Source of the DNA: Oscillibacter sp.
Lineage (GTDB): Bacteria; Bacillota; Clostridia; Oscillospirales; Oscillospiraceae
DNA length: 20,795 nt
NCBI GenBank assembly: GCA_017380995.1
Contig: JAFOCY010000168.1
Location: 1 to 20,795, forward strand
Reading direction: 5' to 3'
Position 1 is the stretch's first letter; each line of letters opens with the position of its first letter. Shown one piece after another: positions 2,275-16,424 of this stretch. Under the pieces are notes generated by a model. That model was not told the DNA's origin, searched no databases, and saw only the letters and a program-made list of their open reading frames with translations. The translations under genes were made by a program, and so were the position numbers.

Positions 2275-2303
2275 TTGACAAAACGGTGATTGAACGGTAT
2301 AGT
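2275..2303 (+). promoter_or_regulatory. Strong sigma-A promoter of the lipoprotein-apbE-rnf operon
   Basis: A consensus -35 TTGACA (2275-2280) is followed 17 bases later by TATAGT (2298-2303). The predicted start near 2310 leaves a long leader of about 230 bases before the first gene. No other convincing promoter is visible within the operon. Confidence 0.8.
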
Positions 2304-2539: not shown

Positions 2540-3613
2540 ATGAAGAACATCAAGAGACTCATCGCATCTGCTCTGGTGGCTTGCTCTATGCTGGCCCTGG
2601 TCGGCTGCGGTGCCAAGGAAGAGGCTCCCGCCGCTTCTGCCGCCCCTGTTGAGACCCCCGCCGCTACTGAGGCCGAGTACAAGCTGGGCATGGGCGTTGT
2701 GCTGAGCACCGCCAGCTCCAAGGAGAACAACGCTCAGGTCGATGCTACCGTCGCTGCCGTTGTGCTGGATGACGCCGGCAAGATCGTTCTGTGCCGTGTC
2801 GATGTGGCTCAGAACAAGATGGATGTCACCGGCGGCGCCGTTGACACTGCCAAGACCTTCAAGACCAAGATGGAGCTGGGCGCTGATTACGGCATGGCCG
2901 GTATCGTTGATAACAACGGCGACGGCGTGATGCTGGAGTGGGATGCTCAGGCCAAGGCTTTCGAGGAGTACGCTGTTGGCAAGACCGGTGCTGAGATCGC
3001 CGCCATGGAGACCCAGGAGGCCAACGGTCACCTGATCGCTGTGGATGAGGCCCTGCTGGCTGCCGGCTGCTCCATGCAGATCACCGACTTTGTTGAGGCT
3101 GTTTCCAAGGCTTGCGAGGATGCCAACGCCGTTTCCTTCAAGACTGCCGACGCTTTCACCCTGGGTGTTGCCGCCGTCTCCGAGGCTTCCGAGTCCACTG
3201 CCGCTTCCGCTGAGGCTGATGCTTCTGTGAAGATGTATTCTGAGTTCGGCGCTGCTGTTGTTGCTGCCGACGGCAAGATCCTGGCTGCTCTGAACGACGC
3301 TACCCAGCCCAAGATCACCGTTTCTGTGGACGGCGCTATCGTCGAGGCCAGCTACAAGGGCACCAAGCGCGAGCTGGGTCCTGACTATGGCATGGTTGCT
3401 TACGGCGCCGCTATTGCTGAGTGGGATGCTCAGTCCGCCGCCTTCTCTGCCTACACGGTTGGCAAGACCGCTGCCGAGGTCCGCGCCATCGAGACCAAGG
3501 AGAACGACCACGGCTATATCGTTCCCGCAGACGAGACCCTGTATGCCAGCTGCACCATGCAGATCACCGGCATGATGGAAGTCATCGCCCGCGCTGCTGA
3601 CTACGCCCGCTAA
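2540..3613 (+). CDS. Surface lipoprotein with two tandem copies of an uncharacterised domain
   Basis: This 357-residue lipoprotein opens the rnf operon. It has a signal peptide with lipobox LVGC (lipidated Cys23) and an Ala/Pro/Thr-rich spacer to about residue 46. Two related domains of about 150 residues follow (about 47-195 and 206-355). Each copy carries the marks ELGxDYGM (112-119; 278-285), EWDAQ followed by YxVGKTxAE (133-152; 294-313) and CxMQIT (177-182; 338-343). The domains recall FMN-binding lipoproteins in layout, but I see no [S/T]GAT flavin attachment motif. ATG 2540 has GGAGG 10 bases upstream; an upstream in-frame start at 2471 lacks support and would spoil the signal peptide. 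The codons are strongly biased to GCC/GGC/CTG/AAG, suggesting high expression. Its position implies a role in or beside Rnf electron transfer, which is inference. Confidence 0.85.
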   Translation: MKNIKRLIASALVACSMLALVGCGAKEEAPAASAAPVETPAATEAEYKLGMGVVLSTASSKENNAQVDATVAAVVLDDAGKIVLCRVDVAQNKMDVTGGAVDTAKTFKTKMELGADYGMAGIVDNNGDGVMLEWDAQAKAFEEYAVGKTGAEIAAMETQEANGHLIAVDEALLAAGCSMQITDFVEAVSKACEDANAVSFKTADAFTLGVAAVSEASESTAASAEADASVKMYSEFGAAVVAADGKILAALNDATQPKITVSVDGAIVEASYKGTKRELGPDYGMVAYGAAIAEWDAQSAAFSAYTVGKTAAEVRAIETKENDHGYIVPADETLYASCTMQITGMMEVIARAADYAR

Positions 3614-3647
3614 AAAGACTTTTTGACCGGACATAGGAGATGAGTGT

Positions 3648-4706
3648 TTGAAAAGGCTGAAGAAAGAACTGGCTTTATGCTGCGTGCTGACCATGCTGGT
3701 CGTTATGACCGGCTGCACTCAGGCGGCAGAGCCTGCCGCAGACCCCATGGGTATGGCATATTTCAACTATTTCGACACCGTCTCCTATGTCTATAATTAT
3801 GCCGGAGACTCGGCGGAGACGTTTGAAGTTCGCTCCGCCGAGGTTTCTGATATTCTCTCGGAATATCACCAGCTTTTTGATATTTATCATGAGTATTCGG
3901 GCATCAACAATTTGTGCACCATCAACCGTCTGGCCGGCGGAGAGCCTCTCCGGGTGGATGAGAAACTGATCAATTTTCTGCTCTACGCAGAAGAATTATA
4001 TCAGCGCACAGACGGCGAGATGAACATTTTGATGGGTGCAGTCTTGCGCATTTGGCACGATTACCGGACAGCGGCAGGGGAAGATCCTTCCACAGCTGCT
4101 GTTCCGCCCATGGAGGATCTTCTGGAAGCTGCGCAGCACATTGATTTTTCGCTGCTGGAGATCGATGCGCAGGCCGGTACGGTTCGCTTGACCGATCCGG
4201 AAGCCTCCATTGATGTGGGCGCCCTGGGAAAAGGATATGCCGCCGAACAGGCCGCCGAACATTTGAGAAAACAGGGAATATCCGGTTACGTCCTGAATGT
4301 GGGCGGCAATCTTCGTATGATCGGAAGCAAGCCTGACGGCAGCGGATGGGTCACCGGCGTTAAGGACCCCGCCCGGCCCGGAGAGGGGTTTGCCGCGAAA
4401 GTAACACTGGAAGATACCTCTTGTGTGACCTCCGGTAATTACGAGCGGTTTTATGCCGTGAACGGCACACGGTATCATCACATCATCGACCAGGACACGC
4501 TGTTCCCAGCAGAGTATTGTGATTCCATTACGGTAGTCACCGAGGACAGCGGTTTGGCAGACGCCCTCTCCACGGCGCTGTTCTGTATGTCCTATGAAGA
4601 TGGCATAGAGCTGCTGGCGTCTTTTGAAGATGTGGAGGCGCTGTGGATCTTTGCAGATGGTACCCTTCGTTATACCGACGGCTTTGGCCAGCTTCTTACA
4701 AATTGA
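3648..4706 (+). CDS. apbE: FAD:protein FMN transferase (ApbE), lipoprotein
   Basis: ApbE cleaves FAD and attaches FMN through a phosphoester bond to a threonine of target proteins, here most likely RnfG and RnfD. The protein has 352 residues, the normal family length, with a signal peptide and lipobox VMTGC (Cys23), placing it on the outer face of the membrane. Family motifs are IDVGALGKGYA (188-198), LNVGGN (216-221), TSGNYERF (261-268), YHHIID (276-281) and ADALSTALF (304-312). The usual D-P-x-T-G-x-P after HHIID reads DQDTLFP, a minor deviation. The TTG start at 3648 is supported by GGAG 8 bases upstream. The weak start codon and less biased codons than its neighbours fit a catalyst needed in low amounts. 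It lies 34 bases after the lipoprotein gene and 53 bases before rnfC. Confidence 0.95.
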   Translation: MKRLKKELALCCVLTMLVVMTGCTQAAEPAADPMGMAYFNYFDTVSYVYNYAGDSAETFEVRSAEVSDILSEYHQLFDIYHEYSGINNLCTINRLAGGEPLRVDEKLINFLLYAEELYQRTDGEMNILMGAVLRIWHDYRTAAGEDPSTAAVPPMEDLLEAAQHIDFSLLEIDAQAGTVRLTDPEASIDVGALGKGYAAEQAAEHLRKQGISGYVLNVGGNLRMIGSKPDGSGWVTGVKDPARPGEGFAAKVTLEDTSCVTSGNYERFYAVNGTRYHHIIDQDTLFPAEYCDSITVVTEDSGLADALSTALFCMSYEDGIELLASFEDVEALWIFADGTLRYTDGFGQLLTN

Positions 4707-4759
4707 TGTGGCCCGAGTATTCATCATTCAGAAAAATAATAAGAGGAGGAAGGAAACTG

Positions 4760-6103
4760 ATGCGACCCAAGAAAAACATCTCCACTTTGAAATTGCATCA
4801 TCATAAGCATACTGCGGCCAGCCAGTCTGTCCGTATTGCTCCCCCCAAGGAAGTTCTGCTTCCCATGACCATGCACGCCGGCGCTCCCGCTGAACCCATT
4901 GTTGCAGTGGGCGATTACGTCCGCGTGGGCCAGAAGATCGCTGAGCGCGGCGAAAAAGGCTTCTCTTCTCCCGTTCATGCCACCGTGTCCGGCACGGTCA
5001 CTGCTATCGAGCCTTACACCCAGGCCGATGGCCGTTCCGTGCAGATCATCCGCATTGAGAGCGACGGCAAAATGGAGAAGGACCCTGCCATCAAGCCCCC
5101 TGTTGCCAACGACGTCGAGGAGTTCCTGGAAGTTGTGGCGGAAAGCGGCATCGTCGGCCTGGGCGGCGCTGCATTCCCTCTGTGGGGCAAGCTTGCCGCC
5201 GTGCGTAGAAATCAGATCGACACCGTGCTCATCAACGGCGCCGAGTGCGAGCCCTACATCACTTCCGACCACCGCATGATGGTGGAGCACAGCGACCTTA
5301 TCGTCAAGGGCGTTGAGATTCTGCGCAAGTGGATGAAGTCCAAGCGCTTTGTCATCGGCATCGAGGATAACAAGCCCGATGCCATCGTCAAGCTGCGGGA
5401 GGCTTTCGCCGGCGATACTTCTGTGGAAGTGCTGCCCCTGCCCAGCATCTACCCCCAGGGCGCCAAGCAGGTTCTGCTGTACAATGTTACCGGTCAGGTG
5501 GTCAAGGGCGGCCAGCGTCTGGCATCCCTGGGCGTTATCATCATCAACGTTTCCTCTTTGGCCAAGCTGGCCCAGTACATGGAAGATGGTATGCCCCTGA
5601 TCGACCGTATCGTCACCGTGGACGGCTCTGCCGTGAAGGAAGCCAAGAATCTGGTGGCCCCCATCGGCACCCCCATTGAGCATCTGTTTGAGCAGGCCGG
5701 CGGTCTGAACTGCGAGCCCGGCAAGGTGCTCATCGGCGGCCCCATGCTGGGTATTGCCGTCAAGTCCATGAGTGAGCCTACCCAGAAGGCCACCAACGCC
5801 ATCCTGGCCATGACGGAGAAGGAGGCAAAGACCTTCGAGCCTACTGCCTGCATCCGCTGCGGACGTTGCGTTGCCAACTGCCCCGTGAGCCTGAACCCCG
5901 CGGCTCTGGCCCGCGCTGCCGAACTGGAGGACGAAGACCAGCGCTTCATCCGCCTGCAGGAGTATTCCATCGGCCAGTGCATCGAGTGCGCCTGCTGCTC
6001 CTATGTCTGCCCCGCCCACAAGCCCCTCATGGCCCAGAATTTGCAGGCCAAGCGCTTTGTTAAAAAGTACAAAGCCGAACATACTACGGAAGGGAGGAAC
6101 TAA
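4760..6103 (+). CDS. rnfC: Rnf electron transport complex subunit RnfC
   Basis: RnfC is the cytosolic, membrane-associated subunit that exchanges electrons with NAD(H) through FMN and two [4Fe-4S] clusters. The 447-residue product has the N-terminal sandwich domain (PPKEVLLPMTMHAGAPAEP, then a lipoyl-like hairpin), the nucleotide/FMN-binding motif GLGGAAFP (133-140) and INGAECEPYITSDH. An SLBB-type region follows, and then two ferredoxin motifs with cysteines 364/367/370/374 and 407/410/413/417. In the glycine-rich loop the usual FPT is FPL. ATG 4760 has GGAGG 10 bases upstream; the frame stays open upstream but overlaps apbE without a ribosome site. rnfD starts 4 bases after the stop. All cofactor motifs look intact, so NADH oxidation or NAD reduction should be possible. 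Confidence 0.96.
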   Translation: MRPKKNISTLKLHHHKHTAASQSVRIAPPKEVLLPMTMHAGAPAEPIVAVGDYVRVGQKIAERGEKGFSSPVHATVSGTVTAIEPYTQADGRSVQIIRIESDGKMEKDPAIKPPVANDVEEFLEVVAESGIVGLGGAAFPLWGKLAAVRRNQIDTVLINGAECEPYITSDHRMMVEHSDLIVKGVEILRKWMKSKRFVIGIEDNKPDAIVKLREAFAGDTSVEVLPLPSIYPQGAKQVLLYNVTGQVVKGGQRLASLGVIIINVSSLAKLAQYMEDGMPLIDRIVTVDGSAVKEAKNLVAPIGTPIEHLFEQAGGLNCEPGKVLIGGPMLGIAVKSMSEPTQKATNAILAMTEKEAKTFEPTACIRCGRCVANCPVSLNPAALARAAELEDEDQRFIRLQEYSIGQCIECACCSYVCPAHKPLMAQNLQAKRFVKKYKAEHTTEGRN

Positions 6104-6106
6104 ACT

Positions 6107-7027
6107 GTGGCAAATCTGAAAATCTCTGCCGCTCCCCATATTCACAGCGGCGCTTCCTCCAATCGGATCATGCTGGATGTGATTATCGCGCTGCTGCCTG
6201 CAACTGCCGCGGCGGTTGTGATCTTCGGCATGAAGTCCCTGAGCGTGCTGTTGTCCTGCGTGCTCACGGCTGTGATCGGTGAGGCTCTGTTCAACATCGT
6301 CTGCAAGAAAAAGCAGACCGTGGGTGATTTCAGCGCGGTTGTCACCGGCCTTCTGCTGGCCCTGAACCTCAGCACCAACGTTCCTGTCTGGCAGTGTGTG
6401 GTGGGTACCCTCTTTGCCATCATCTGCGTCAAGTGCATCTTCGGCGGTCTTGGCCGTAACTTCGCCAACCCCGCCATCACCGGCCGTGTCTTCATGCTGG
6501 TGGCCTTCTCCGCCGTTGCCGGCGGCGCCAACCCCACCATCGTGGATGTGGCCACCTCTGCAACTCCTCTGGAGCAGCTGGGTAAGGGTGAGACCGTGGA
6601 GCTGATGGACCTGTTCCTGGGCCTCCATGGCGGCGCCATCGGCGAGACCTGCATCCTTGCGCTGGTGATCGGTTTTGTGTACCTGCTGGTGCGTAAGGTC
6701 ATCACCTGGCATACTCCCGTGGTGTTTATTTCCACTGTGTTTGTGCTGTACATGGTCTTTACCGGTGATGTCCATATGGCTTTGAGCCAGATCCTGGCGG
6801 GCGGTCTTTTCATCGGCGCCATCTTCATGGCCACCGACTATGTGACCACCCCCATCACCACCCGCGGCCGCGTCGTCTTTGCCCTGGGCTGCGGCGTCAT
6901 CACCTTCATCATCCGTTATTTCTGTGCTTATCCCGAAGGCGTCTCCTTCTCCATCCTTATCATGAACATCCTGACCCCCTTCATTGAGAAGCTGACTGCC
7001 AAAGAACCCCTGGGAGGTGTGAAGTAA
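6107..7027 (+). CDS. rnfD: Rnf electron transport complex subunit RnfD
   Basis: RnfD (306 residues) is a polytopic membrane protein carrying a covalently attached FMN and, in known complexes, part of the ion-translocating path. Hydrophobic helices are visible throughout, with the family signature NLSTNVPVWQ, then GGLGRNFANPAI and the C-terminal FMATDYVTTPIT. The flavin attachment motif reads TSATPL with Thr153 as the acceptor expected to be modified by ApbE. The GTG start is supported by GGAGG (6092-6096). The stop codon overlaps the ATG of rnfG in TAATG, indicating translational coupling. Length and motifs are typical of the family, in contrast with RnfA and RnfE of this operon. Confidence 0.95.
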   Translation: MANLKISAAPHIHSGASSNRIMLDVIIALLPATAAAVVIFGMKSLSVLLSCVLTAVIGEALFNIVCKKKQTVGDFSAVVTGLLLALNLSTNVPVWQCVVGTLFAIICVKCIFGGLGRNFANPAITGRVFMLVAFSAVAGGANPTIVDVATSATPLEQLGKGETVELMDLFLGLHGGAIGETCILALVIGFVYLLVRKVITWHTPVVFISTVFVLYMVFTGDVHMALSQILAGGLFIGAIFMATDYVTTPITTRGRVVFALGCGVITFIIRYFCAYPEGVSFSILIMNILTPFIEKLTAKEPLGGVK

Positions 7028-8304
7028 TGAAAGATACCGGAAAGACGCTGGCCGTTCTGGCCGCGCTGTTCGCCGTGTTTACTGCGGCAATGTTCGGCCT
7101 GAATACTGTCACCGGCCCCATCATTGAGAGCAACAACTCCTCTGAGGCCTATGCGCCTTTGTTTGCCGTTATGCCCGAGGCTGAGGACTTCCAGGTCCTC
7201 TACATGGCTGATGGCAGCGTGGAGACCGCTCTTGTGGATGTCCCTGAGACCGTTCAGGCCATCTATCAGGAGACCTCCGGCCTGGGCTACGCCCTGAAGA
7301 TGTCCACCACCAAGGGCTATACCGGCGAGGCCATCGAACTGACCTTCGCCGTGGACGCAGAGGGCAAGATCTCCGGCATCCAGCTGGACGCCTATCCTGA
7401 GAGCAAGGACTTTGGTGCAGAATATCCCGGCACCTTCATTGGCCAGGACTCCACTCTGGCTGATATCCAGCTGGTGGCCGGCTGTACCTATTCTTCCGTT
7501 GCCTTCCGCGACGCTGTCGCCGACGGCATGGCTGCTCTGATCGCAAACAGCCTGATGGCTGAGGGCGTCAAGAGCAATGACCAGCTGCTGCTGGAGCTGG
7601 TACCCACTGCCCACACCGGCCTTGTCAATGATAAGGGTATCGCCCAGTACGAGGAGCTGGAGGGCGACGGTGCATCCATCCTCAAGATTCTGAAGGCTCC
7701 CAACAACTCCGGCTTCGGCTATCTGGTGCAGGAGGGCGACAGCGCCCTGCTGGCCGTGACCAATGCCAGCGGCAGCGTGAAGATCGTCAATGTTGACGGT
7801 GCAGATGTGACTGCCGATTTCGCCGGCGTTGCCGATACCGTCAAGGCCCATACCGAGGCCAACATTTCCGGCAACGTGGACAAGGACATGCAGAGAATGA
7901 ACATGCTGATGGCTGACGCCGTCATCACCCAGATCCCCGTGGGCGATGTGTTCAACTCCGTGACCAGCGCCTACAAGCTGGAAAAGGACGGCGCTGTTTA
8001 CTACGGCCTGGTTTCCAGAAGCTACGGCTATGGCAACGAAGTCATGGGCGTGTACTATGTGCTGGATGAGGCCGGTGCCATCGTGGCGATCCACGTGGAC
8101 GAGCTGATCTTCCATGCAGAGTACTTCTCTGACTATACCCTGGATCCCGCATCCTACAAGGATGGCTTCAAGGGCATGACCGCCGGTACCTGGAGCGACG
8201 ATGTGGCCCAGATCTCCGGCGCTACCATGACCAGCGACGCCATGAGAGTGGCTACCAAGGATATCTTTGATGCATTTGAAACCGTGAAGGGAGGCGCACA
8301 GTAA
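7027..8304 (+). CDS. rnfG: RnfG with two FMN-binding domains
   Basis: RnfG carries covalent FMN on the outer face of the membrane and relays electrons within Rnf. One N-terminal transmembrane helix (about residues 8-28) is followed by two FMN-binding domains. The product is 425 residues, about twice the usual ~200. The second domain has the standard attachment motif ISGATMTS with Thr400. The first has AGCTYSS, where the S-G-A-T motif has become A-G-C-T but the acceptor threonine (Thr154) and the following YSS remain. Whether ApbE modifies the first site is uncertain. The start and stop overlap the neighbours in TAATG, so synthesis is coupled to rnfD and rnfE. The enlarged form could hold two flavins in series; this is inference. 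Confidence 0.92.
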   Translation: MKDTGKTLAVLAALFAVFTAAMFGLNTVTGPIIESNNSSEAYAPLFAVMPEAEDFQVLYMADGSVETALVDVPETVQAIYQETSGLGYALKMSTTKGYTGEAIELTFAVDAEGKISGIQLDAYPESKDFGAEYPGTFIGQDSTLADIQLVAGCTYSSVAFRDAVADGMAALIANSLMAEGVKSNDQLLLELVPTAHTGLVNDKGIAQYEELEGDGASILKILKAPNNSGFGYLVQEGDSALLAVTNASGSVKIVNVDGADVTADFAGVADTVKAHTEANISGNVDKDMQRMNMLMADAVITQIPVGDVFNSVTSAYKLEKDGAVYYGLVSRSYGYGNEVMGVYYVLDEAGAIVAIHVDELIFHAEYFSDYTLDPASYKDGFKGMTAGTWSDDVAQISGATMTSDAMRVATKDIFDAFETVKGGAQ

Positions 8305-8948
8305 TGAAAAATCTGCGTAACGCAGTTACCGAGAATCCGATGATGGTTCTCTTCCTGGGCGCCTGCCCCGCCATGGGCGCCACGGCCACCGTGCTGGGCG
8401 CCGCAGGCATGGGCGTTGCCGTTCTTGTGGTGATGCTGCTGTCCGGCATGGTGATGACCGCTTTGAAGAAGGTCCTCCCCGCCAGCGGCCGCGTTCCCGC
8501 CTATGTTCTCACCATCGCCGGATTTGTCTCTATGACCCAGATGCTGATGAATGCATTCCTCCCCGATGTTTACAAGATGCTGGGCATCTATATCGCCGTG
8601 GCCGCAGTGGATCTGCTGATCTTCGGCACGGAGGAGTCCGCCGTGGAAGGCGGTGTGGGCACTGTGGTGTCTGCCAGCCTGAAAAACGGCCTGCGCTTCC
8701 TGATCATTCTGGTGGTCATGGGCGTTGTTCGTGAGGCGCTGGGCAGTGCCAGCATCGCCGGTAAGGACATCGCCTTCCTCACCGCTTACCGCATCCCCGT
8801 GCTGGCCATGGCTCCCGGCGGTTTCCTGGTCTACAGCTTTACGGCTGCGGTTTGCAGCAAGCTCTGGGCCGCGGAAAAGCTGGAGGGCGAAGGCGCTGCC
8901 TGCGCTGCCACCGGCATCGCTGAATACAATGAGGAGGCTGCACAGTAA
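8304..8948 (+). CDS. rnfE: RnfE-like membrane subunit lacking one cluster cysteine
   Basis: This 214-residue polytopic protein is the RnfE/NqrD homologue. In characterised Rnf and Nqr, RnfE and RnfA each give two cysteines to a [2Fe-2S] cluster in the middle of the membrane. Here the first is kept (LGACPAMG, Cys21). The second, normally in an N-C-x-x-x-G-R-A-E-A motif after LGIFIPL, is lost: the matching stretch is LGIYIAVAAVDLLIFGTEES, so Asn-Cys reads Asp103-Leu104. Other landmarks (MTQMLMNAFLPDVYK, APGGFLV) are conserved. The C-terminus is extended and Glu/Ala-rich. It is coupled to rnfG and rnfA by TAATG overlaps. The family call is firm; its electron-carrying role is doubtful given the missing ligand. 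Confidence 0.9.
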   Translation: MKNLRNAVTENPMMVLFLGACPAMGATATVLGAAGMGVAVLVVMLLSGMVMTALKKVLPASGRVPAYVLTIAGFVSMTQMLMNAFLPDVYKMLGIYIAVAAVDLLIFGTEESAVEGGVGTVVSASLKNGLRFLIILVVMGVVREALGSASIAGKDIAFLTAYRIPVLAMAPGGFLVYSFTAAVCSKLWAAEKLEGEGAACAATGIAEYNEEAAQ

Positions 8949-9505
8949 TGGAAAACACGATCTTTGCGATCCTGCTCAGCGGTATCCTGCTGAATAACTG
9001 CACGCTGCAGAGCTATCTGGGCATTACTACCCTTCTGGGCTATTCTGAGAGCACCAAAAAGGCTGCTGTGATGGGCGGTGCCGTCACCCTGGTGACCACC
9101 CTCTCCGCCGCTGCAGCCTGGGCCGTGGATCACTTTGTCCTGGCACCTTTTGGCCTGGAGTACCTGCAGACTCTGGTGTTTGTCACCATCATTCTGGCTG
9201 TTTCCTACCTCGCCGGTGCTGCTGCCAAGTCTTCCGCACAGAAGGCTCTGGGCGTCTGGTTCCCCCTGATTGTCCTCAACAGCGCCGTTCTGGGTGTTGC
9301 TGTGAACAATGCCGCTGCCGGCTACAGCTTCCTTGAGGCTGTGGTTTCCGCCCTGGCTTCCGGCCTGGGCTTCCTGCTGGCCGTGGTGGTGTTCTCCGGC
9401 GTGTGCACCAGAATTGAAAACCAGTATGTGCCCCGTGCGTTCCGGGGCCTGCCCGTACAGCTGATGGTCGCCTGCATCATCGCCCTGGCCCTGTACGCAT
9501 TCTGA
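8948..9505 (+). CDS. rnfA: RnfA-like membrane subunit lacking both cluster cysteines
   Basis: This 185-residue polytopic protein is the RnfA/NqrE homologue (FGLEYLQTLVFV, ALGVWFPLIVLNSAVLGVA, ASGLGFLLAVVVFSGV and AFRGLPVQL are typical). Canonical RnfA has L-G-x-C-P-F near residue 25 and N-C-A-V-L-G-V-A near 110. Here these are LGITTLLG (Thr27) and NSAVLGVA (Ser112), so both ligands of the intramembrane [2Fe-2S] cluster are gone. A cysteine at position 18 (LLNNCTLQ) is new and could be a partial substitute, but the second site has none. The gene starts in the stop codon of rnfE. No rnfB follows: the next gene is a NusG-II domain protein one base after the stop. Confidence 0.9.
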   Translation: MENTIFAILLSGILLNNCTLQSYLGITTLLGYSESTKKAAVMGGAVTLVTTLSAAAAWAVDHFVLAPFGLEYLQTLVFVTIILAVSYLAGAAAKSSAQKALGVWFPLIVLNSAVLGVAVNNAAAGYSFLEAVVSALASGLGFLLAVVVFSGVCTRIENQYVPRAFRGLPVQLMVACIIALALYAF

Positions 9506-9506
9506 T

Positions 9507-9875
9507 ATGGAGCGGGACAGGAAAAAGCACTGGGACCTGCTGCTGATCGGAGGATGCCTCCTCCTCTCTGCCATTCTCTTTACCTTCTCTTATCTTACCA
9601 GCGGGGAAGGCGCCGGCGTGATCGTCCGGGTGAATGGGGAAGAGGTGGAGCGGTACAGCCTGTATGATAACGGCACCTACGAACTCAACGGCGGGACCAA
9701 CACACTGGTCATTGAAAACGGCGCTGCCTGGCTCAGCCACGCGGACTGCCCGGATTCCCTCTGTGTCAAGCAGGGTAAGATCCGCTCCAATGGACAGGTC
9801 ATCACGTGCCTGCCCAATAAACTCACCGTCACCGTCTACGGAAGCGAAGAGAGCGAAGTAGATCTGATTAGCTGA
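9507..9875 (+). CDS. NusG domain II-containing membrane-anchored protein
   Basis: This 122-residue protein has a single N-terminal transmembrane helix (about 10-30) and an extracytoplasmic NusG_II-type beta domain. The family signature is clear: SHADCPDSLCVKQGKI (Cys81, Cys86) and VITCLPNKLTV (Cys101). Proteins of this family are often encoded beside Gx-transporter, ApbE and polyprenyl-synthase genes linked to flavin-based or quinone-based electron transfer; the molecular role is unknown. The gene begins one base after rnfA and its product is followed 18 bases later by the Gx-transporter gene. Codons are less biased than in the rnf genes. The cysteines could bind a metal or form a disulphide; this is not shown by the sequence. 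Confidence 0.9.
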   Translation: MERDRKKHWDLLLIGGCLLLSAILFTFSYLTSGEGAGVIVRVNGEEVERYSLYDNGTYELNGGTNTLVIENGAAWLSHADCPDSLCVKQGKIRSNGQVITCLPNKLTVTVYGSEESEVDLIS

Positions 9876-9893
9876 ATAAACGGAGAAAAACGC

Positions 9894-10385
9894 ATGAAAG
9901 CATCCAAACTGAGCATTTTATCCCTGAGTGTGAGCCTTGCGATGATCCTTTCCTTTGTGGAAAGCCAGATCCCTCCCCTGGTGGCCATTCCGGGCGTGAA
10001 GATGGGTCTTGCCAACATCGCGGTTGTGTTCGCGCTGTATAAAATGGGGTGGAAATACGCTGCGGTGATTTCCGGTGTGCGTGTGTTTCTGGTGGGATTG
10101 CTGTTTGGCAGTGCTGTGAGCCTGCTTTACAGTACGGCGGGCGCCGTGGTCAGCTTCTTGTGCATGGTGCTTTTGAAAAAGACAGGGCGCTTTTCCTACA
10201 CTGCGGTCTCTGTTGCCGGCGGTGTGATGCACAACATGGGGCAGATCGCCATGGCCTGCATCCTCATGAGCACCAATATTCTCAAGTACTATGCGCCCTT
10301 CCTGATCCTCAGCGGCACTTTGGCGGGAATCGTCATTGGCTTGCTGTCCGCTGTCCTGGTCAAGCGCATCAACGTGAAAGTATGA
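9894..10385 (+). CDS. Gx transporter / heptaprenyl diphosphate synthase component I-like membrane protein
   Basis: This 163-residue very hydrophobic protein has about five transmembrane helices and matches the Hpre_diP_synt_I / Gx transporter family (ESQIPPLVAIPGVKMGLANI, FGSAVSLLYSTAG, GGVMHNMGQIAMA). Members are distantly like ECF transporter S components and often sit beside NusG_II proteins and prenyl synthases. A real prenyl synthase activity is unlikely, since no aspartate-rich catalytic motif is present. It may transport a small precursor needed for flavin- or quinone-linked electron transfer (inference). GGAG lies 9 bases before ATG 9894. It is the last gene before a strong terminator, and it closes the rnf operon where rnfB would be expected. 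Confidence 0.88.
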   Translation: MKASKLSILSLSVSLAMILSFVESQIPPLVAIPGVKMGLANIAVVFALYKMGWKYAAVISGVRVFLVGLLFGSAVSLLYSTAGAVVSFLCMVLLKKTGRFSYTAVSVAGGVMHNMGQIAMACILMSTNILKYYAPFLILSGTLAGIVIGLLSAVLVKRINVKV

Positions 10386-10502: not shown

Positions 10503-11060
10503 TCAGGGGGAAAGGGAAGAAAACCGGACCTCTCCCATGGTTTTTGTGCACAGGCAAAGGCTGTACTCCGGGGCAAAGGGGAGCAGTTGCAGCTGCGCCC
10601 CTTCCATCACCGGAAATTCCCCGGTGGGGGAGACCAGGGAAAAAGAGGCGGGATCATCATAAAAACCGCGGCCGGTGTACTTGACCCAGCTTTCCTTGGC
10701 GCACCAGAGCTCAAAAAAGCGGCGGTAATCCTCCCGGGATAAAAACGCATCCTCCCATGGGTGGAAAAAGCGGCGGGAGAGAACTGCCGGTGCGGCGTGG
10801 GAGCGGTGGATCTGCAGGTCCAGCCCCAGGGGAGCGGAGGAAAAACCGCAGAGCCACCAGTCTTGGCTGTGGGAAATGGAAAAATGAAGATCCGGGCGGA
10901 GGGAAAAGGAGGGTTTTCCCCAGGGATTGGTCTCCAGAGGGCCCAGTTCCTCGGCCGAGAGGCCGGAGAAGACCCCGGCGGAGCGGTACAGCAGGGCGTG
11001 AGACTGCCTGTCCTCTTCCGGGGACAGGCAGTAAAAGATGGTCACAGCGGGACCCGCCAT
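10503..11060 (-). CDS. Sfp-type 4'-phosphopantetheinyl transferase
   Basis: The enzyme moves the phosphopantetheine arm of CoA to a serine of carrier proteins, here presumably the free ACP and the NRPS carrier domain. The 185-residue protein shows GKPSF followed by HFSISHS (59-65), then LGLDLQI (79-84) and LWCAKESWVKYTGRG (118-132), the three family motifs. The metal-binding D-x-E is D81-x-Q83, a variant also found in other family members, with Glu123 of KES kept. I place the start at ATG 11060 because GGAG lies 8 bases upstream. A GTG at 11066 overlapping the ACP stop is possible but only 2 bases from that site. It is the last gene of the reverse operon, a usual place for a cluster-dedicated PPTase. 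Confidence 0.93.
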   Translation of the reverse strand: MAGPAVTIFYCLSPEEDRQSHALLYRSAGVFSGLSAEELGPLETNPWGKPSFSLRPDLHFSISHSQDWWLCGFSSAPLGLDLQIHRSHAAPAVLSRRFFHPWEDAFLSREDYRRFFELWCAKESWVKYTGRGFYDDPASFSLVSPTGEFPVMEGAQLQLLPFAPEYSLCLCTKTMGEVRFSSLSP

Positions 11061-11062
11061 GG

Positions 11063-11293
11063 TCACGGCTCCGTAAAGCCCTTCTGGGCAAGGTAGGCGA
11101 TCACGTCTTTTACCTGGTGGAGCTGCCAGACTTCGCGGGTGGGGATGCTGGTATCAAAATGCTCTTCAAAAGCGCTGATGATGTTCATCACATCAAAGGA
11201 ATTGAGGGCCAGATCCTGCACAAAGTCGGTTTCATAGGTGATGCCGGATTTTCCGGTCACATCGTAGATGATATCTTGGATCAGTTGCAGCAT
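11063..11293 (-). CDS. Free-standing acyl carrier protein
   Basis: This 76-residue acidic, helical protein has the carrier motif DLALNSFDVMNI, with Ser32 as the phosphopantetheine site; the usual D-S-L is N-S-F. It follows the acyl-AMP ligase gene by 17 bases and directly precedes the PPTase, so it probably receives the acyl group activated by the ligase and hands it to the NRPS. AGGAG lies 8 bases before the ATG. It is unlikely to be the fatty-acid ACP of the cell, given the variant motif and its location. Confidence 0.93.
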   Translation of the reverse strand: MLQLIQDIIYDVTGKSGITYETDFVQDLALNSFDVMNIISAFEEHFDTSIPTREVWQLHQVKDVIAYLAQKGFTEP

Positions 11294-11310
11294 GATGGAT
11301 TCTCCTTTTG

Positions 11311-12975
11311 TCAGTTGCCGTGGCGCTTGATCTTCTTCGTGCCGGTCTTGTTGAATTCTTTCTCCCGGATGTTCACCAGCTGGATCTGCTGGTAAGTGGG
11401 GAGGGTGTTGTTGATCTTATCCACCTCGTGCTGGAGGTGCTCCAGGATCTCGTAGGAGGAAAGACCTTCCGTGCGCTGGGGGTCGGGATAGATGCTGGCG
11501 GTGAGCTTCACATCGTCTGCAAACACGCCGTTGGCGGTGCCGGTGACCAGGACTTCCTTGACCATGGGGATGGAGGAGATCAGTTCCTCCAGCTTTTCGG
11601 GGGAGACCTTTTTGCCGTTTTTGAAGACGATCAGGTTCTTCTTGCGGCCGGTGAGGAAGAGGAAACCGTCCTTATCCAGATACCCCAGGTCACCGGTTTT
11701 GAACCAGCCGTCCGAGGTCAGGGCCTGGGCGGTCTCTTCCGGATTGTTGTAGTATCCCTGCATTACAGAGGGGCCACGGGCCCAGACTTCGCCCTCCTCG
11801 ATGCGCAGCTCCACAGTGGGCAGGGGGCGGCCTACGGAGCCCAGCTTGTTGTCGTAGTTGCAGTTGACGGAGATCAGCGGGCAGCACTCGGTGATGCCAT
11901 AGCCCTGGAGCACCTGGATGCCCAGAAGCTCAAACTCCTCGGCAATTTCCTTGCTCAGGTGGGCGCCGCCGCAGATGATGAGCCGCAAAGAGCCGCAGAT
12001 CTTTTCCCGCAGGGCGTCAAAGGTTTTGAAGTTGGCGGGAAGGTGGAATTTCTTGCATACGGAGGCAGCCTGGATCAGCTTTTTCAGAGACTCGGCCTTT
12101 CCTGCCTTTTCCACCCCCAGCCACAGCTGGTTGTGGATGGCCTCCAGCATCAGGGGGACCGTCAGCATGGAATCCGGGGAAGAGAGCTGCAGGTCCCGCA
12201 TGGTGGTCTTCAGGTCGCCGTTGATATACAGGTGGCAGCCTCGCAGGAAGCTGTTGAGCACGGCGGTATTGAAGCCGTAGGCGTGGTAGAAGGGGAGGGA
12301 GCAGAAGACCCGCTCGTAAAGACGGACATAGGTGCCGGTATCGCAGATGTTCTGCATGATGGCGCCTTGGCTGAGCAGGACCATTTTAGACTGGCTGGTG
12401 GTGCCGGAGGTGAAGACGATCTCGGCAGTCTGGCTGGGGTCGGTCTGGGGGAAGGCAGAGACTTCCTTCTGTGCACCGGCTGCGTAGAGATCCTCCAGCA
12501 TTTCTACGCCTGCTTCCGTGGTTTTGGATCCCATCAGGATCATGCCGGATACCTGTCCGTCCTGAAGCAGGGGCAGGCAGATAGGAAGGAAGGTGCCGGA
12601 GAGGAACAGCAGACGGCAATCGCTGCGCCGGACCATATCCCGGATGCTTTCATCGGACTGCTCGGTATCTACATACACGGCCACGTATCCGCAGGAGATA
12701 ACGGCAAGGGCGGTGATGATCCAGTCAGCCGTATTCTCACCGATCAGCGCAATGTGGGAGCCGGTGGGGAGTTTCTTTTCCAGAAGCATATTGCGCAGGG
12801 CGCTGACCTTGTCTGTCAGCTCCTTGTAGCTCAGCGTTTTTTCCTCCTTGCGGCGGGTGAACCAGGAAAGGGCCGGACGGGGACCGTAAAGACGGGCGAT
12901 ACCTTCCAGGAATTCCGGAAAGGTGTGGAAAATGGGAACGGAAAAATCTTCTTTTCGATCAAGTGTTTTTCTCAT
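11311..12975 (-). CDS. AMP-dependent acyl-CoA synthetase/ligase, probable acyl-ACP loading enzyme
   Basis: The 554-residue ANL-superfamily enzyme activates a carboxylic acid as acyl-AMP and transfers it to a thiol, here probably that of the adjacent ACP. Core motifs are all present: the phosphate loop IVFTSGTTSQSKMVLLS, QGYGITECCPL, the FKTGDLGYLD aspartate, GRKKNLIVFKNGKKVSPE (hinge), and the C-terminal lysine in FNKTGTKKIK. It resembles long-chain acyl-CoA synthetases (FadD-like) rather than amino-acid adenylation domains. The substrate cannot be read; a fatty or aryl acid is plausible. AGGAGGT lies 6 bases before the ATG. The phosphate loop has SQSK where most family members have T-G-x-P-K. 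Its place between a response regulator and the ACP gene points to a role in starting the NRPS product with an acyl cap. Confidence 0.92.
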   Translation of the reverse strand: MRKTLDRKEDFSVPIFHTFPEFLEGIARLYGPRPALSWFTRRKEEKTLSYKELTDKVSALRNMLLEKKLPTGSHIALIGENTADWIITALAVISCGYVAVYVDTEQSDESIRDMVRRSDCRLLFLSGTFLPICLPLLQDGQVSGMILMGSKTTEAGVEMLEDLYAAGAQKEVSAFPQTDPSQTAEIVFTSGTTSQSKMVLLSQGAIMQNICDTGTYVRLYERVFCSLPFYHAYGFNTAVLNSFLRGCHLYINGDLKTTMRDLQLSSPDSMLTVPLMLEAIHNQLWLGVEKAGKAESLKKLIQAASVCKKFHLPANFKTFDALREKICGSLRLIICGGAHLSKEIAEEFELLGIQVLQGYGITECCPLISVNCNYDNKLGSVGRPLPTVELRIEEGEVWARGPSVMQGYYNNPEETAQALTSDGWFKTGDLGYLDKDGFLFLTGRKKNLIVFKNGKKVSPEKLEELISSIPMVKEVLVTGTANGVFADDVKLTASIYPDPQRTEGLSSYEILEHLQHEVDKINNTLPTYQQIQLVNIREKEFNKTGTKKIKRHGN

Positions 12976-12991
12976 CTTAGACCTCCTGCGC

Positions 12992-14524
12992 TCAGTGTGT
13001 GCCGCCGGTGATGGGGGGAGGGCACTCGGTCAGCTCTTTTTGCATGGTGTTCCAAAAGTCTTGATTTTGAATCATGTCCAGGAACGCATCCACTACCTGG
13101 GCGTCCAGCTGGGTACCCTTGTAACGGTTCAGTTCCTCCATGGCGCGCTGGACCGTCAGCGCTTTGCGGTACTGGCGGTCGGAGGTCATGGCGTCAAAGG
13201 TGTCCACAACGGCTACGATGCGGGCTTCCTCCGGGATCTGCTCTCCCCGCAGGCCATTGGGATAGCCGGAGCCGTCAATGCGCTCATGGTGGTTCAAAAT
13301 GGCGGGGAGAACGGGGCGGAAATGGCTGATGACAGACAGCAGCTCCACGCCGTTTTTGGGATGGGATTTGATGACCTGGTATTCCTCGTCGGTGAGCCGC
13401 TCCGGTTTGAGCAGGATCTCATCGGGAATGGAAAGCTTTCCCACATCATGGAAAAGACCGGCAAGGCGCACCTGCTCACAGTACTCCTCGCCCTTGCCCA
13501 TGCGGCGGGCCAGCTGGGCGGCATAATAGGAGACGCGGTCGGAGTGGCCTCTGGTATAGGTATCCTTGGCGTCTACGATCCGGCGCATGGTGCTGATCAT
13601 CTCCATGTAGCTGGTTTGGAGCTGATGATAGGCATCGTTGAGCTGGTGGTTTTTGACCTGGATCAGGTTGTGGAGGGCGCAGTTGGAAATAGCGGAAGAG
13701 GTCTGACGGGCAAATACCTCCAGCAGCTGCACCTGGTCATAGTGAGGCTCCTCCTTCAGCGTGATGGAAAGGAGGCCCAGAGACTGGCTGGCGTCCATAA
13801 TGGGAAGAAGGATCTGTTTTTCCCGGACAAGAGAGCTTTTTCCCTCCAGGGCAAGGAGCAGCTCCTCCACTTCCTGGGGCGTGGGGGCGGAACAGTCCTC
13901 ACCTACGGTACGGAAGGTGAACTGGCGGCCTTCAGCCTGAGGCACATAGGTTTGGTAATGGGAGCTGTCCAGGGCCAGCACCACGTTCAAACAGGGAAGG
14001 AGGGACGCGGCAGTATGAAGGATACTGTCGGTGATACGCTCCATGGAAGCCAGATGATAGATCTGGGGAAGGGAATCCACGATGGCGGAAAGGCCATCCT
14101 TGTAGCTGCGGATGGTGCGCATCTGGCGAATGGACTTGACGCAGGATTCCACCAGCAGCTCCAGCTGGTCGAAACGGTCACTTTTTTCGTAGTAACCCTG
14201 GATATCCAGCGCCCGGATGGTCTTGATGGGGGGCGCCATGCTTTTGTGGCCGGTGAGCAGAATGATGAACAGCTCTTTGTTGAACTGCCGGATCTGCTCC
14301 ACCACCTGGTCGCCGCAGATGGGGGACATCAAAAAGTCCAGCAGCAGGATGTCATAGTGTCCGTTTCGGATGCGCTCAATGGCGGCGTAGGGGTCGTTTT
14401 CCGTGTCCACCCGGTAACCGGAGCGCTGGAAATAGGCCTGAACGGTGGAAGTCATGATGGGGTCATCGTCCAGGGTGAGGATGGAGAACGCATTCTCATT
14501 TAGATTTTTTTTGTGCTGTCTCAT
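12992..14524 (-). CDS. Response regulator with REC, GAF-like and HD-GYP domains
   Basis: The 510-residue protein is a predicted cyclic-di-GMP phosphodiesterase controlled by phosphorylation. The REC domain (about 12-130) has the acidic pair D19-D21, phosphoacceptor D63 (ILLLDFLM), T91 and K114. A central region (about 140-285) looks GAF-like. The HD-GYP domain (about 312-490) has GHSDRVS, FHDVGKLSIP (H359-D360), HHERIDGSGYP (412-422) and VDTFDAMTSDRQYR; all catalytic and GYP residues are present. The gene starts 16 bases after the histidine kinase stop with GAGGT 9 bases upstream, so the two form a cognate pair. There is no DNA-binding domain: output is through c-di-GMP turnover or protein contact, not direct promoter control. 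Confidence 0.93.
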   Translation of the reverse strand: MRQHKKNLNENAFSILTLDDDPIMTSTVQAYFQRSGYRVDTENDPYAAIERIRNGHYDILLLDFLMSPICGDQVVEQIRQFNKELFIILLTGHKSMAPPIKTIRALDIQGYYEKSDRFDQLELLVESCVKSIRQMRTIRSYKDGLSAIVDSLPQIYHLASMERITDSILHTAASLLPCLNVVLALDSSHYQTYVPQAEGRQFTFRTVGEDCSAPTPQEVEELLLALEGKSSLVREKQILLPIMDASQSLGLLSITLKEEPHYDQVQLLEVFARQTSSAISNCALHNLIQVKNHQLNDAYHQLQTSYMEMISTMRRIVDAKDTYTRGHSDRVSYYAAQLARRMGKGEEYCEQVRLAGLFHDVGKLSIPDEILLKPERLTDEEYQVIKSHPKNGVELLSVISHFRPVLPAILNHHERIDGSGYPNGLRGEQIPEEARIVAVVDTFDAMTSDRQYRKALTVQRAMEELNRYKGTQLDAQVVDAFLDMIQNQDFWNTMQKELTECPPPITGGTH

Positions 14525-14540
14525 GGGCGATTACCTCAAT

Positions 14541-16424
14541 TCATAGATCGATTGACTGGGGGGCGTCGGAAAGGGTGGTTTCGGCGGAAGGGGGGAGGGG
14601 GATGGTCATGCCGAAGATGGCGCCGCCGCCGGGATTATCCTCGCACCACATGGTGCCGTTGAACTTACCGTGGACCACGGCGTTGGAGATATACAGGCCC
14701 AGGCCGGTGCCCTGGGCGCCCTTGCTGGTGGCCATCTCCCGGAACAGGCGGTGGCGGACCGAGGGGGGAATGCCGGGGCCGGTGTCCCGCACATAGATCT
14801 TGATGGATCCGTCTTCCTGCTCCACACCGATGGTGATGCAGCCGCCGCCCACCTGCTTTTGGGCGTAGATGGCGTTGGTCACAAGGTTGCCCAGCACCTG
14901 GACCAGGTTGTTGATATCGCCGTGGAGGGTGACGTTGGCGGGGTTTTTGTACTCGGTGGTCAGGGTGCAGCCGCTGCTGAGCAGCTCGTGGCGCATGAGG
15001 AGTGTAGTTCGTTTGATGAGCTCATCCACCGTGAAAAGGGAGGTGTTGGAGGCACTGACTGTAGTGGCCTGGCCCTTGATGGCGGTAATGATGTCCGACA
15101 TATAGGCGGTGGATTCCATGATCTTCTGGAACCAGTCCCGCATTTCTCCGTAGATCTCCCGGTAGTCATCCTGGTTCACATTGGGGTCATCCAGGCTATC
15201 CAGGCACTCATCGATCAGCGTATCCGCGGCGGAGATGCAGCCGGAAATGCCCATGATGGGGGTCTTCAGGTTGTGGGCAAGGCCGCCGATCATCTGGCCC
15301 AGGAAGGCGAAGCGTTCCTGCTCCATCATGCGGCTCTGGCTGTCCTGGAGCTGCTGCATACTCTTTTTCAGCTGGGTGATGTCCTTGAAGATGACCACAA
15401 AGCCGGCGGGCTTATCGTTGATGATGAGCTGGGAGACGTCCGTGACATAGTAGCTCTTCTGCACGGCGCCGTCGTGGTTGAGGACCACGCTCTGCTCATA
15501 GGAAATGGTGGCCTGGGCCTCGCGGCAGGCGTCCACAGCGGTCATAATGTTGTAGATGGCGGTCTTCTTGGAGATATCTTCCTCTTTCACGCAGTCCTTC
15601 AGATAGCGGTTTTCCATAATGCCGTACCGGGAGGCAAAGACCGCGGCGAAGGGCTTATTGTAGCTGATGATCAGACCGCTGGGGCTGAGGATGAGATAGC
15701 AGTCCGAGATCCAGTCCAGCACGTGCTGGGTAGCCACGGGAGTGATATCCAGAAGGTTCAGCCGGTAGATGGCGATGCCGTTGAAAAGAACCAGGAAGGA
15801 AAAACTCAGGGGGGTGGCGGCGATGGAGAAATTCAGCCCCGAGAAGGTGGAGAGAATGCTCACTAGGAAGGGGCAAAGGCCGCCGATGGCCAGCATACTG
15901 CACTGGCCGATATACAGCCGGCTGGGGTTGCGCCGTGCAAAGGTCACCAGCAGGATCATGCTGGCCACCACGCAGATATAGCCATTTGCGCCGCTGATGA
16001 AAACATAGGGACCAAACACGATCTCACTTCGGATCACGGAGAAGACCTGGTACTGCAAATGGTGCCAGTCGTTGGTGAGGCAGATGAGAAAGGCGAGGAC
16101 CGGGACGATAAACGGCAGGAAAAACCACTTGGGCGGCTTATCCGCGCTTTTGGTAAACGTGTAACAGATGAGCAGATAAAAGGGCGAGATGGCGGTGCCC
16201 AGGTAGGACAAGCTGTCCAGAAACTGCAGGATGTCCACGCGCTCGGGCGGCGTGATGAACATAAGCAGCATGATCACGGCCCAGAGGGAATAGTCCCACA
16301 TCAGGAACAGATACAGCCGGTGGAGAAGATAGCGGTGCTTGCGGCTGTAGAGGCTCCAGACGGAGAACATGACCACCACGATCAGGGAGAGCACAAAAAC
16401 GGCGGCGGAGAAAGCGGAGATCAT
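14541..16424 (-). CDS. Sensor histidine kinase with 7TM input region and PAS domain
   Basis: This 627-residue membrane kinase senses a signal and phosphorylates the downstream REC/HD-GYP protein. Seven hydrophobic helices fill residues 1 to about 222 (HisKA_7TM type). A PAS domain follows (about 231-350), ending in GFVVIFKDIT. The dimerisation/phosphoacceptor segment has GGLAHNLKTPI with His384. The ATP-binding domain has N517 (LVTNAIYAQ), DTGPGIP (547-553) and GTGLGLYIS (572-580). Its ATG overlaps the NRPS stop as ATGA, so the kinase is translationally coupled to the NRPS. This is an unusual place for a kinase and suggests that it senses the peptide product, its target, or a state tied to its synthesis (inference). 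Confidence 0.93.
   Translation of the reverse strand: MISAFSAAVFVLSLIVVVMFSVWSLYSRKHRYLLHRLYLFLMWDYSLWAVIMLLMFITPPERVDILQFLDSLSYLGTAISPFYLLICYTFTKSADKPPKWFFLPFIVPVLAFLICLTNDWHHLQYQVFSVIRSEIVFGPYVFISGANGYICVVASMILLVTFARRNPSRLYIGQCSMLAIGGLCPFLVSILSTFSGLNFSIAATPLSFSFLVLFNGIAIYRLNLLDITPVATQHVLDWISDCYLILSPSGLIISYNKPFAAVFASRYGIMENRYLKDCVKEEDISKKTAIYNIMTAVDACREAQATISYEQSVVLNHDGAVQKSYYVTDVSQLIINDKPAGFVVIFKDITQLKKSMQQLQDSQSRMMEQERFAFLGQMIGGLAHNLKTPIMGISGCISAADTLIDECLDSLDDPNVNQDDYREIYGEMRDWFQKIMESTAYMSDIITAIKGQATTVSASNTSLFTVDELIKRTTLLMRHELLSSGCTLTTEYKNPANVTLHGDINNLVQVLGNLVTNAIYAQKQVGGGCITIGVEQEDGSIKIYVRDTGPGIPPSVRHRLFREMATSKGAQGTGLGLYISNAVVHGKFNGTMWCEDNPGGGAIFGMTIPLPPSAETTLSDAPQSIDL

Follow-up and report, generated by a model that had tools for sequence, protein, structure and literature searches.

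A derived Rnf operon of gut bacteria that lacks rnfB and most ligands of the intramembrane [2Fe-2S] cluster probably sends NADH electrons to flavin proteins outside the cell

We analyzed a stretch of 20,795 nucleotides (the window) from contig JAFOCY010000168.1 of the Oscillibacter sp. assembly GCA_017380995.1. On its forward strand, at positions 2540 to 10385, the window carries an operon for a derived Rnf complex in the order lipoprotein-apbE-rnfC-D-G-E-A-nusG_II-eetB. The operon has no rnfB, and its RnfA and RnfE have other residues in place of three of the four cysteines that bind the intramembrane [2Fe-2S] cluster; the cofactor motifs of RnfC, RnfD, and RnfG are all retained. In the canonical complex, electrons are described as running from ferredoxin through RnfB, the RnfA/RnfE cluster, RnfG, RnfD, and RnfC to NAD+ (PMC11889175). 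Together, these features suggest that, in some gut bacteria, extracellular flavin proteins probably receive electrons from reduced nicotinamide adenine dinucleotide (NADH) by way of this operon. More specifically, we consider it reasonably likely that the U-shaped path has been reduced to its NADH-RnfC-RnfD-RnfG half, which exports electrons to a flavoprotein lipoprotein. The features of the region, with flavin mononucleotide and flavin adenine dinucleotide abbreviated as FMN and FAD, are as follows.

2275..2303, + strand: promoter-like site TTGACA-17-TATAGT, 5' of the first gene, 11 of 12 consensus matches (consensus only)
2540..3613, + strand: lipoprotein whose two FMN_bind-like domains lie in tandem, a putative electron acceptor of the flavinylated type
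3648..4706, + strand: ApbE, extracytosolic FMN transferase (PF02424, 215.7 bits)
4760..6103, + strand: RnfC, the NADH/FMN subunit, which retains both of its [4Fe-4S] sites (TIGR01945, 430.7 bits; cut-off, 245.95)
6107..7027, + strand: RnfD, membrane flavin subunit (TIGR01946, 286.8 bits; cut-off, 207.05)
7027..8304, + strand: RnfG in its long form, containing two FMN_bind domains (PF04205, two stretches)
8304..8948, + strand: RnfE, with Cys21 kept and Leu104 at the second ligand position (alignment to solved chains)
8364..8366, + strand: codon of RnfE Cys21, the sole remaining ligand
8613..8615, + strand: codon of RnfE Leu104, which replaces a ligand cysteine
8948..9505, + strand: RnfA without the cluster cysteines (alignment to solved chains)
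9026..9028, + strand: codon of RnfA Thr27, which replaces a ligand cysteine
9281..9283, + strand: codon of RnfA Ser112, which replaces a ligand cysteine
9507..9875, + strand: NusG domain II protein (PF07009), which we take to be EetA-like
9894..10385, + strand: EetB-type S component of the energy-coupling factor type ("Gx transporter"; PF07456), putative FAD exporter feeding ApbE

A sequence-only reading of this region had given the order rnfC-D-G-E-A followed by a NusG-II protein and a Gx transporter; that order and its coordinates hold, and the apbE and lipoprotein genes, which it had left unnamed, have to be added at the 5' end. It had also reported rnfB as missing, and we likewise found none in the operon, with rnfA ending at 9505 and being followed directly by the gene that starts at 9507. 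The window RnfG, RnfE, and RnfA all score above the broader Pfam cut-offs and below those of NCBIfam (34.5 against 102, 119.6 against 213.4, and 144.1 against 229.3 bits, respectively).

Alignment to solved Rnf/Nqr chains placed Thr27 and Ser112 of the window RnfA opposite C25 and C113 of the A. woodii protein, and Cys21 and Leu104 of RnfE opposite its C25 and C108, which are the very residues that the sequence-only reading had picked out. The ligand roles of the A. woodii cysteines are those described in PMC11889175, according to which their replacement abolishes activity. Among the 120 clusters listed from 354 RnfA relatives, 87 lack both cysteines and 31 have both, with none mixed; the remaining 2 are fragments without the single cysteine position that can be read. 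Among the 120 clusters listed from 295 RnfE relatives, the two ligand positions are Cys/Leu in 117, Thr/Leu in 2, and Gly/Leu in 1, and an additional locus from the genome scan below (L051) has Ala/Leu. Given these members and a second branch in which all four ligands are gone (see below), the last RnfE ligand cysteine is dispensable. Since 37 sequences belong to the RnfA cluster with 99% identity to the window protein, the cysteine-less state recurs across most of the listed RnfA clusters, and the ratio of nonsynonymous to synonymous substitution rates (dN/dS) of RnfA and RnfE lies between 0.03 and 0.38 (four pairs), chance or sequencing error can be excluded as the source of the replacements. 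Independently of the ligand positions, RnfE tends to have a cysteine-rich C-terminal tail, with at least three cysteines in 115 of 129 distinct rows of the window's branch (group 1) and in 69 of 77 canonical rows; the window tail has two. An extra core cysteine is also present in 96 of the 129 group 1 rows, where the window has serine. These tail and core cysteines possibly form a metal site.

The loss of the ligands is coupled to that of rnfB. In a scan of named genomes from which the best 80 loci were kept, so that the counts are not measures of prevalence, the RnfA cysteines are gone in 8 loci (L034 to L040 and L051), and rnfB is gone from all 8; the other 72 keep both cysteines and have rnfB without exception, with the RnfE ligands not all readable in 3 of them because of gaps. 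All 8 cysteine-less loci are from metagenome-assembled genomes, and the titles of at least four name ruminant gut. A divergent second branch (group 2) of seven loci (L160 to L162 and L193 to L196) has lost all four ligand cysteines and has no rnfB. In three of its genomes (G213, G218, and G219), reached via their canonical loci, a low-scoring second pair proved to be the cysteine-less operon. Of the 30 loci taken in an order-level search of 394 genomes, the cysteine-less ones were the window and those of four second-branch genomes (G498, G487, G052, and G555), and rnfB was present in the other 25. The window alone was cysteine-less among the 30 loci taken in a class-level search of 391 genomes; of the remaining 29, one that lies close to the end of its contig (L220) had no rnfB within the stretch read. 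The cysteine-less operon is found across three families within the order (f1, f19, and f20), with the RnfA and RnfE frames open in all 16 loci read.

The genomes in question mostly have a second, canonical Rnf. The source assembly of the window (G000; 1.54 Mb in 231 contigs, 93.09% complete) has rnfC-rnfD at the end of one contig (C175) and rnfE-rnfA-rnfB at the end of another (C202), with the ligand cysteines present. Its sole match to the RnfB-type PF04060 lies in this canonical operon on C202. Hence, an rnfB elsewhere in the genome, which the sequence-only reading had named as potentially refuting its view, does exist, and it sits within an operon that has its own RnfA and RnfE. A canonical pair with adjoining rnfB is likewise found in seven of the eight named relatives (not G200), and a canonical copy is present in four group 2 genomes (G213, G218, G219, and G052). 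G555 has one further RnfA match, and G487 and G498 have a single RnfA match each, so that in 3 of the 16 genomes with the cysteine-less operon (G200, G487, and G498, all drafts) no second Rnf was found. These single-Rnf drafts indicate that the cysteine-less complex can exist without a partner Rnf. Among 12 genomes from the neighboring canonical group, 3 have a second-branch operon besides their canonical Rnf, and the other 9 have only one Rnf pair.

In contrast to the RnfA/RnfE center, the motifs of the remaining redox sites are kept, as the sequence-only reading had proposed for RnfC, RnfD, and RnfG alike. Alignment of RnfC, the subunit with the NADH/FMN domain, to 7zc6_C and 9eri_C showed that the cysteines of both [4Fe-4S] clusters are kept. 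RnfD retains the equivalents of A. woodii T156, the covalent FMN site, and of N123 and D249, which contact riboflavin (roles as given in PMC11889175). RnfG has putative FMN attachment sites at Thr154 (AGCTYSS) and Thr400 (SGATMTS), with threonine at both positions in all eight aligned relatives.

Sequence conservation shows a corresponding reversal. We compared the two operons in eight genomes that have both, giving 28 pairs that are not independent of each other. In the cysteine-less operon, mean percent identity is 75.0 for RnfD, 67.6 for RnfC (that of G202 being a 216-residue fragment), 62.0 for RnfA, 58.2 for RnfG, and 56.6 for RnfE; in the canonical operon it is 78.2 for RnfA, 73.9 for RnfE, 62.1 for RnfD, 61.2 for RnfC, and 60.1 for RnfB, with 75.2 for RnfG, which was found in only three genomes. 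RnfC and RnfD both exceed RnfA and RnfE in 27 of the 28 cysteine-less pairs, and the opposite order holds in 24 of the 28 canonical pairs. Compared subunit by subunit, the cysteine-less protein is the less conserved one in 27 (RnfA), 26 (RnfE), 7 (RnfC), and 5 (RnfD) of the 28 pairs; close pairs without the reversal are G203-G205 for RnfE and G201-G202 for RnfA. The joint loss of RnfB and the RnfA ligands, exceptionless across the 80 loci, the relaxation of RnfA and RnfE, and the retention of RnfC and RnfD are what would be predicted if ferredoxin:NAD oxidoreduction had been given up, and they support that proposal of the sequence-only reading.

As for its origin, a tree of RnfD united the nine first-branch operons in one clade (support in the Shimodaira-Hasegawa-like approximate likelihood ratio test [SH-aLRT], 97) within a 21-row group (99), the rest of which is canonical. 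The canonical loci L041, L053, L059, L077, and L079 of that group have the arrangement lipoprotein-apbE-CDGEA-B-nusG_II-eetB, and identical synteny with rnfB is seen in the canonical L098 outside the group. The other, canonical Rnf of the same genomes forms a separate clade. When the rows of the second branch were included and L088, a long row, was omitted, the 16 cysteine-less rows came together (85, below the star of the tool), nested within that canonical group (98), and the first branch by itself was unresolved (36). The simplest history is a single loss of rnfB and the ligands in an rnfB-bearing operon of this synteny, with two separate losses as an alternative compatible with the tree.

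The accessory genes point to the far end of the putative path. The lipoprotein had no Pfam match at threshold, the PF04205 (FMN_bind) cut-off included, and its AlphaFold2 model is confident. A profile of 17 family members matched the structure 2kzx (E = 1.5e-8), aligning its SGAT with the AGC[S/T] of the lipoproteins, and the 2kzx fragment itself scores above the PF04205 cut-off. The AGC[S/T] motif has S or T at both sites in all 17 rows; in the window protein, counted from the start at 2540, the candidate attachment residues are Ser178 and Thr339. Thus, we recognize a lipoprotein family with two FMN_bind-like domains in which AGC[S/T] replaces SGA[S/T]; it adjoins canonical Rnf operons as well. 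Of 7,999 candidates that were scored, 1,676 are relatives, and the FMN_bind label is absent from all 120 of those listed. Surveys based on PF04205 have probably missed the family. We infer that the lipoprotein is flavinylated. It lies upstream of the core in seven of the eight named cysteine-less loci (L036 ends at a contig edge) and in all seven group 2 loci. As best-match neighbors in the eight named loci, we found the lipoprotein in seven, ApbE in seven, NusG_II in six, and EetB in five. PF07456 corresponds to EetB, described in Listeria as the FAD-binding subunit of an exporter that supplies ApbE (PMC9973259). Since the same source places eetB next to Rnf genes in 572 Clostridia genomes, the PF07456 gene is a usual Rnf neighbor, and the oddity of the operon lies in its core.

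On the basis of these observations, an outward path can be conceived. In published structures, the RnfC and RnfB clusters closest to each other are over 30 Å apart (PMC11889175, PMC9588780), direct RnfB-RnfC transfer is considered unlikely (PMC11889175), and the NADH-RnfC-RnfD-RnfG path in these structures is independent of RnfB and the RnfA/RnfE cluster (PMC11889175, PMC9588780). Removal of RnfB and that cluster thus leaves a continuous path with its end on the outside. NADH would deliver electrons to the FMN of RnfC, from which they would move across the two [4Fe-4S] clusters of that subunit and then, via riboflavin and FMN in RnfD, reach the outer side of the membrane and the two-domain flavoprotein RnfG. 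The co-encoded, putatively flavin-bearing lipoprotein may take them up there and hand them to an extracytosolic acceptor. ApbE would attach the FMN, with EetB exporting FAD for it, and RnfA and RnfE, which would carry no [2Fe-2S] cluster, might serve as a membrane scaffold and a dock for RnfG. The benefit to the cell could be regeneration of NAD+ alongside the canonical Rnf. The sequence-only reading had offered an NADH-driven electron exporter or a flavin-only relay; the former appears to be the best reading of the sequences, and the latter is wrong because RnfC retains the cysteines of its two [4Fe-4S] clusters.

A different view, which is unlikely, is that RnfA and RnfE, freed of the cluster, still carry Na+ or H+, switched by RnfG docking or the membrane potential, so that export stays ion coupled. 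PMC11889175 places the Na+ path in RnfA/RnfE, and dN/dS of the pair is below 0.4. Several residues are kept in the distinct group 1 rows, namely, R67 (112 of 129) and E115 (129 of 129, counting E and D alike) of RnfE, N112 of RnfA (98 of 98), and the gate residue L22 (86 of 98 in RnfA, 129 of 129 in RnfE), and the cluster site turns polar, RnfA position 113 being serine in 96 of 98 and RnfE N107 having become Asp in 107 of 129. However, this Asp107 is absent from group 2, RnfA T111, a Na+ contact, has been replaced by Leu or Val in all 98 rows, and RnfE L103, at which a change to Gly lowers activity, is Val in 129 of 129. Moreover, Na+ binding comes after cluster reduction in PMC11889175, and RnfA and RnfE are less conserved relative to RnfC and RnfD. 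A rather doubtful extension of this idea is that duplication of rnf and loss of rnfB had a second outcome, an RnfA/RnfE ion carrier free of redox centers and mechanically coupled to RnfG, with ions still moved as NADH-driven export passes electrons to surface flavoproteins; if true, ion transport would be separable from the [2Fe-2S] switch.

The other alternatives have still less in their favor. Inward flow, from a reduced outside donor over the lipoprotein, RnfG, RnfD, and RnfC to NAD+, is improbable: a flavin chain should be reversible in principle, but a donor below the potential of NADH is unlikely outside a fermenting gut cell, and nothing in the operon points to one. It is very improbable that RnfB is borrowed in trans from the canonical operon, with ferredoxin still served via a non-[2Fe-2S] cofactor or new ligands. 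The canonical rnfB of the same genome, the one ligand cysteine retained in most group 1 RnfE proteins, and the new cysteines common elsewhere in them would fit this, but the commonest of these is serine in the window, group 2 has lost all four ligands, three genomes appear to have no second Rnf from which to borrow, and ligand changes inactivate the A. woodii complex (PMC11889175). Finally, the fast divergence of RnfA and RnfE and the canonical copy in most of the genomes could be taken as signs of a functionless, decaying paralogue. This is hardly credible against the open frames in every locus read, the spread over three families, the low dN/dS, and an RnfD that is more conserved than its canonical counterpart. 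Export from NADH through RnfC, RnfD, and RnfG remains the reading that we prefer.

The surroundings of the operon are of other kinds. Promoter-like sites in the region number 8 against 3.6 expected (consensus matching only). Upstream on the forward strand are the C-terminal portion of a protein of the choloylglycine hydrolase family (3 to 602; PF02275), cut at the window edge, and a short protein that stands alone and has a type I restriction HSDR_N_2 domain (995 to 1459). Downstream on the reverse strand (10503 to 20794) are genes for a phosphopantetheinyl transferase, an AMP-binding ligase, a response regulator with an HD domain, a seven-transmembrane histidine kinase, and a one-module nonribosomal peptide synthetase (condensation, AMP-binding, PP-binding, and a NAD_binding_4 reductase-like end). 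Together they may form a small peptide cluster that has regulators of its own.

Literature searches retrieved no published description of a cysteine-less, rnfB-less Rnf operon, and its place is best seen by comparison. The subunits C, D, G, E, and A are homologous to, and in the same order as, those of the canonical Rnf complexes of C. tetanomorphum (7zc6), A. woodii (9eri), and A. vinelandii (8ahx), and the RnfC clusters, RnfD flavin residues, and RnfG FMN site are retained. Nevertheless, we do not file the operon as Rnf proper because RnfB and three of the four [2Fe-2S] ligands (all four in group 2) are missing and RnfA, RnfE, and RnfG fall under the NCBIfam cut-offs. The absence of RnfB is shared with the Na+-translocating NADH:quinone oxidoreductase (Na+-NQR), which is proposed to have arisen from a duplicated rnf operon minus rnfB, followed by loss of the RnfC sites and recruitment of NqrF (PMC4014512). 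The operon represents a living case of that step with the opposite result, since its RnfC keeps the NADH/FMN/[4Fe-4S] residues and its RnfA/RnfE center is lost. Identity with Na+-NQR itself is ruled out by these RnfC sites and by NqrF, the input subunit with FAD and [2Fe-2S], not being among the operon's families in a Pfam search. It is disputed whether the ion is moved by the RnfA/RnfE dimer with its [2Fe-2S] switch or by RnfD/NqrB (PMC11889175 versus PMC9588780); with well-conserved RnfC and RnfD beside an RnfA and RnfE that have lost the cluster ligands, the operon offers a natural test case for ion transport without the cluster-bearing arm.

For two-subunit "NQR/RNF-like" systems, it has been proposed that electrons flow one way, starting at NAD(P)H and ending on an FMN-binding subunit outside the cytosol. 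These systems consist of an RnfD-NqrF fusion and an RnfG-like protein, lack any further subunits, and have no covalent-FMN threonine in the membrane subunit (PMC8238504, PMC11334425). The present operon differs in its separate RnfC, the threonine kept in RnfD, and the RnfA and RnfE that remain; its RnfD matches PF03116 only and is not the PF03116-PF00175 fusion used as a criterion by Meheust (2021). The definitions of that 2021 survey, either RnfB as key gene or this fusion, would place the operon in neither system. The Gram-positive extracellular electron transfer (EET) system of Listeria comprises Ndh2, EetA/EetB, FmnB, and PplA, the last a lipoprotein with FMN_bind-like domains comparable to the one found here. 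Ndh2 was not among the operon's families in the Pfam search. The ApbE-type transferase and the EetB-type FAD exporter (PF07456) by which Listeria-type EET is recognized (PMC9973259) both occur in the cluster. The operon is a candidate route of extracytosolic electron transfer in gut bacteria of this order, one that resembles the Listeria system in its accessory genes and differs from it in that the NADH-oxidizing module is an Rnf core rather than Ndh2, with no quinone step evident in the operon.

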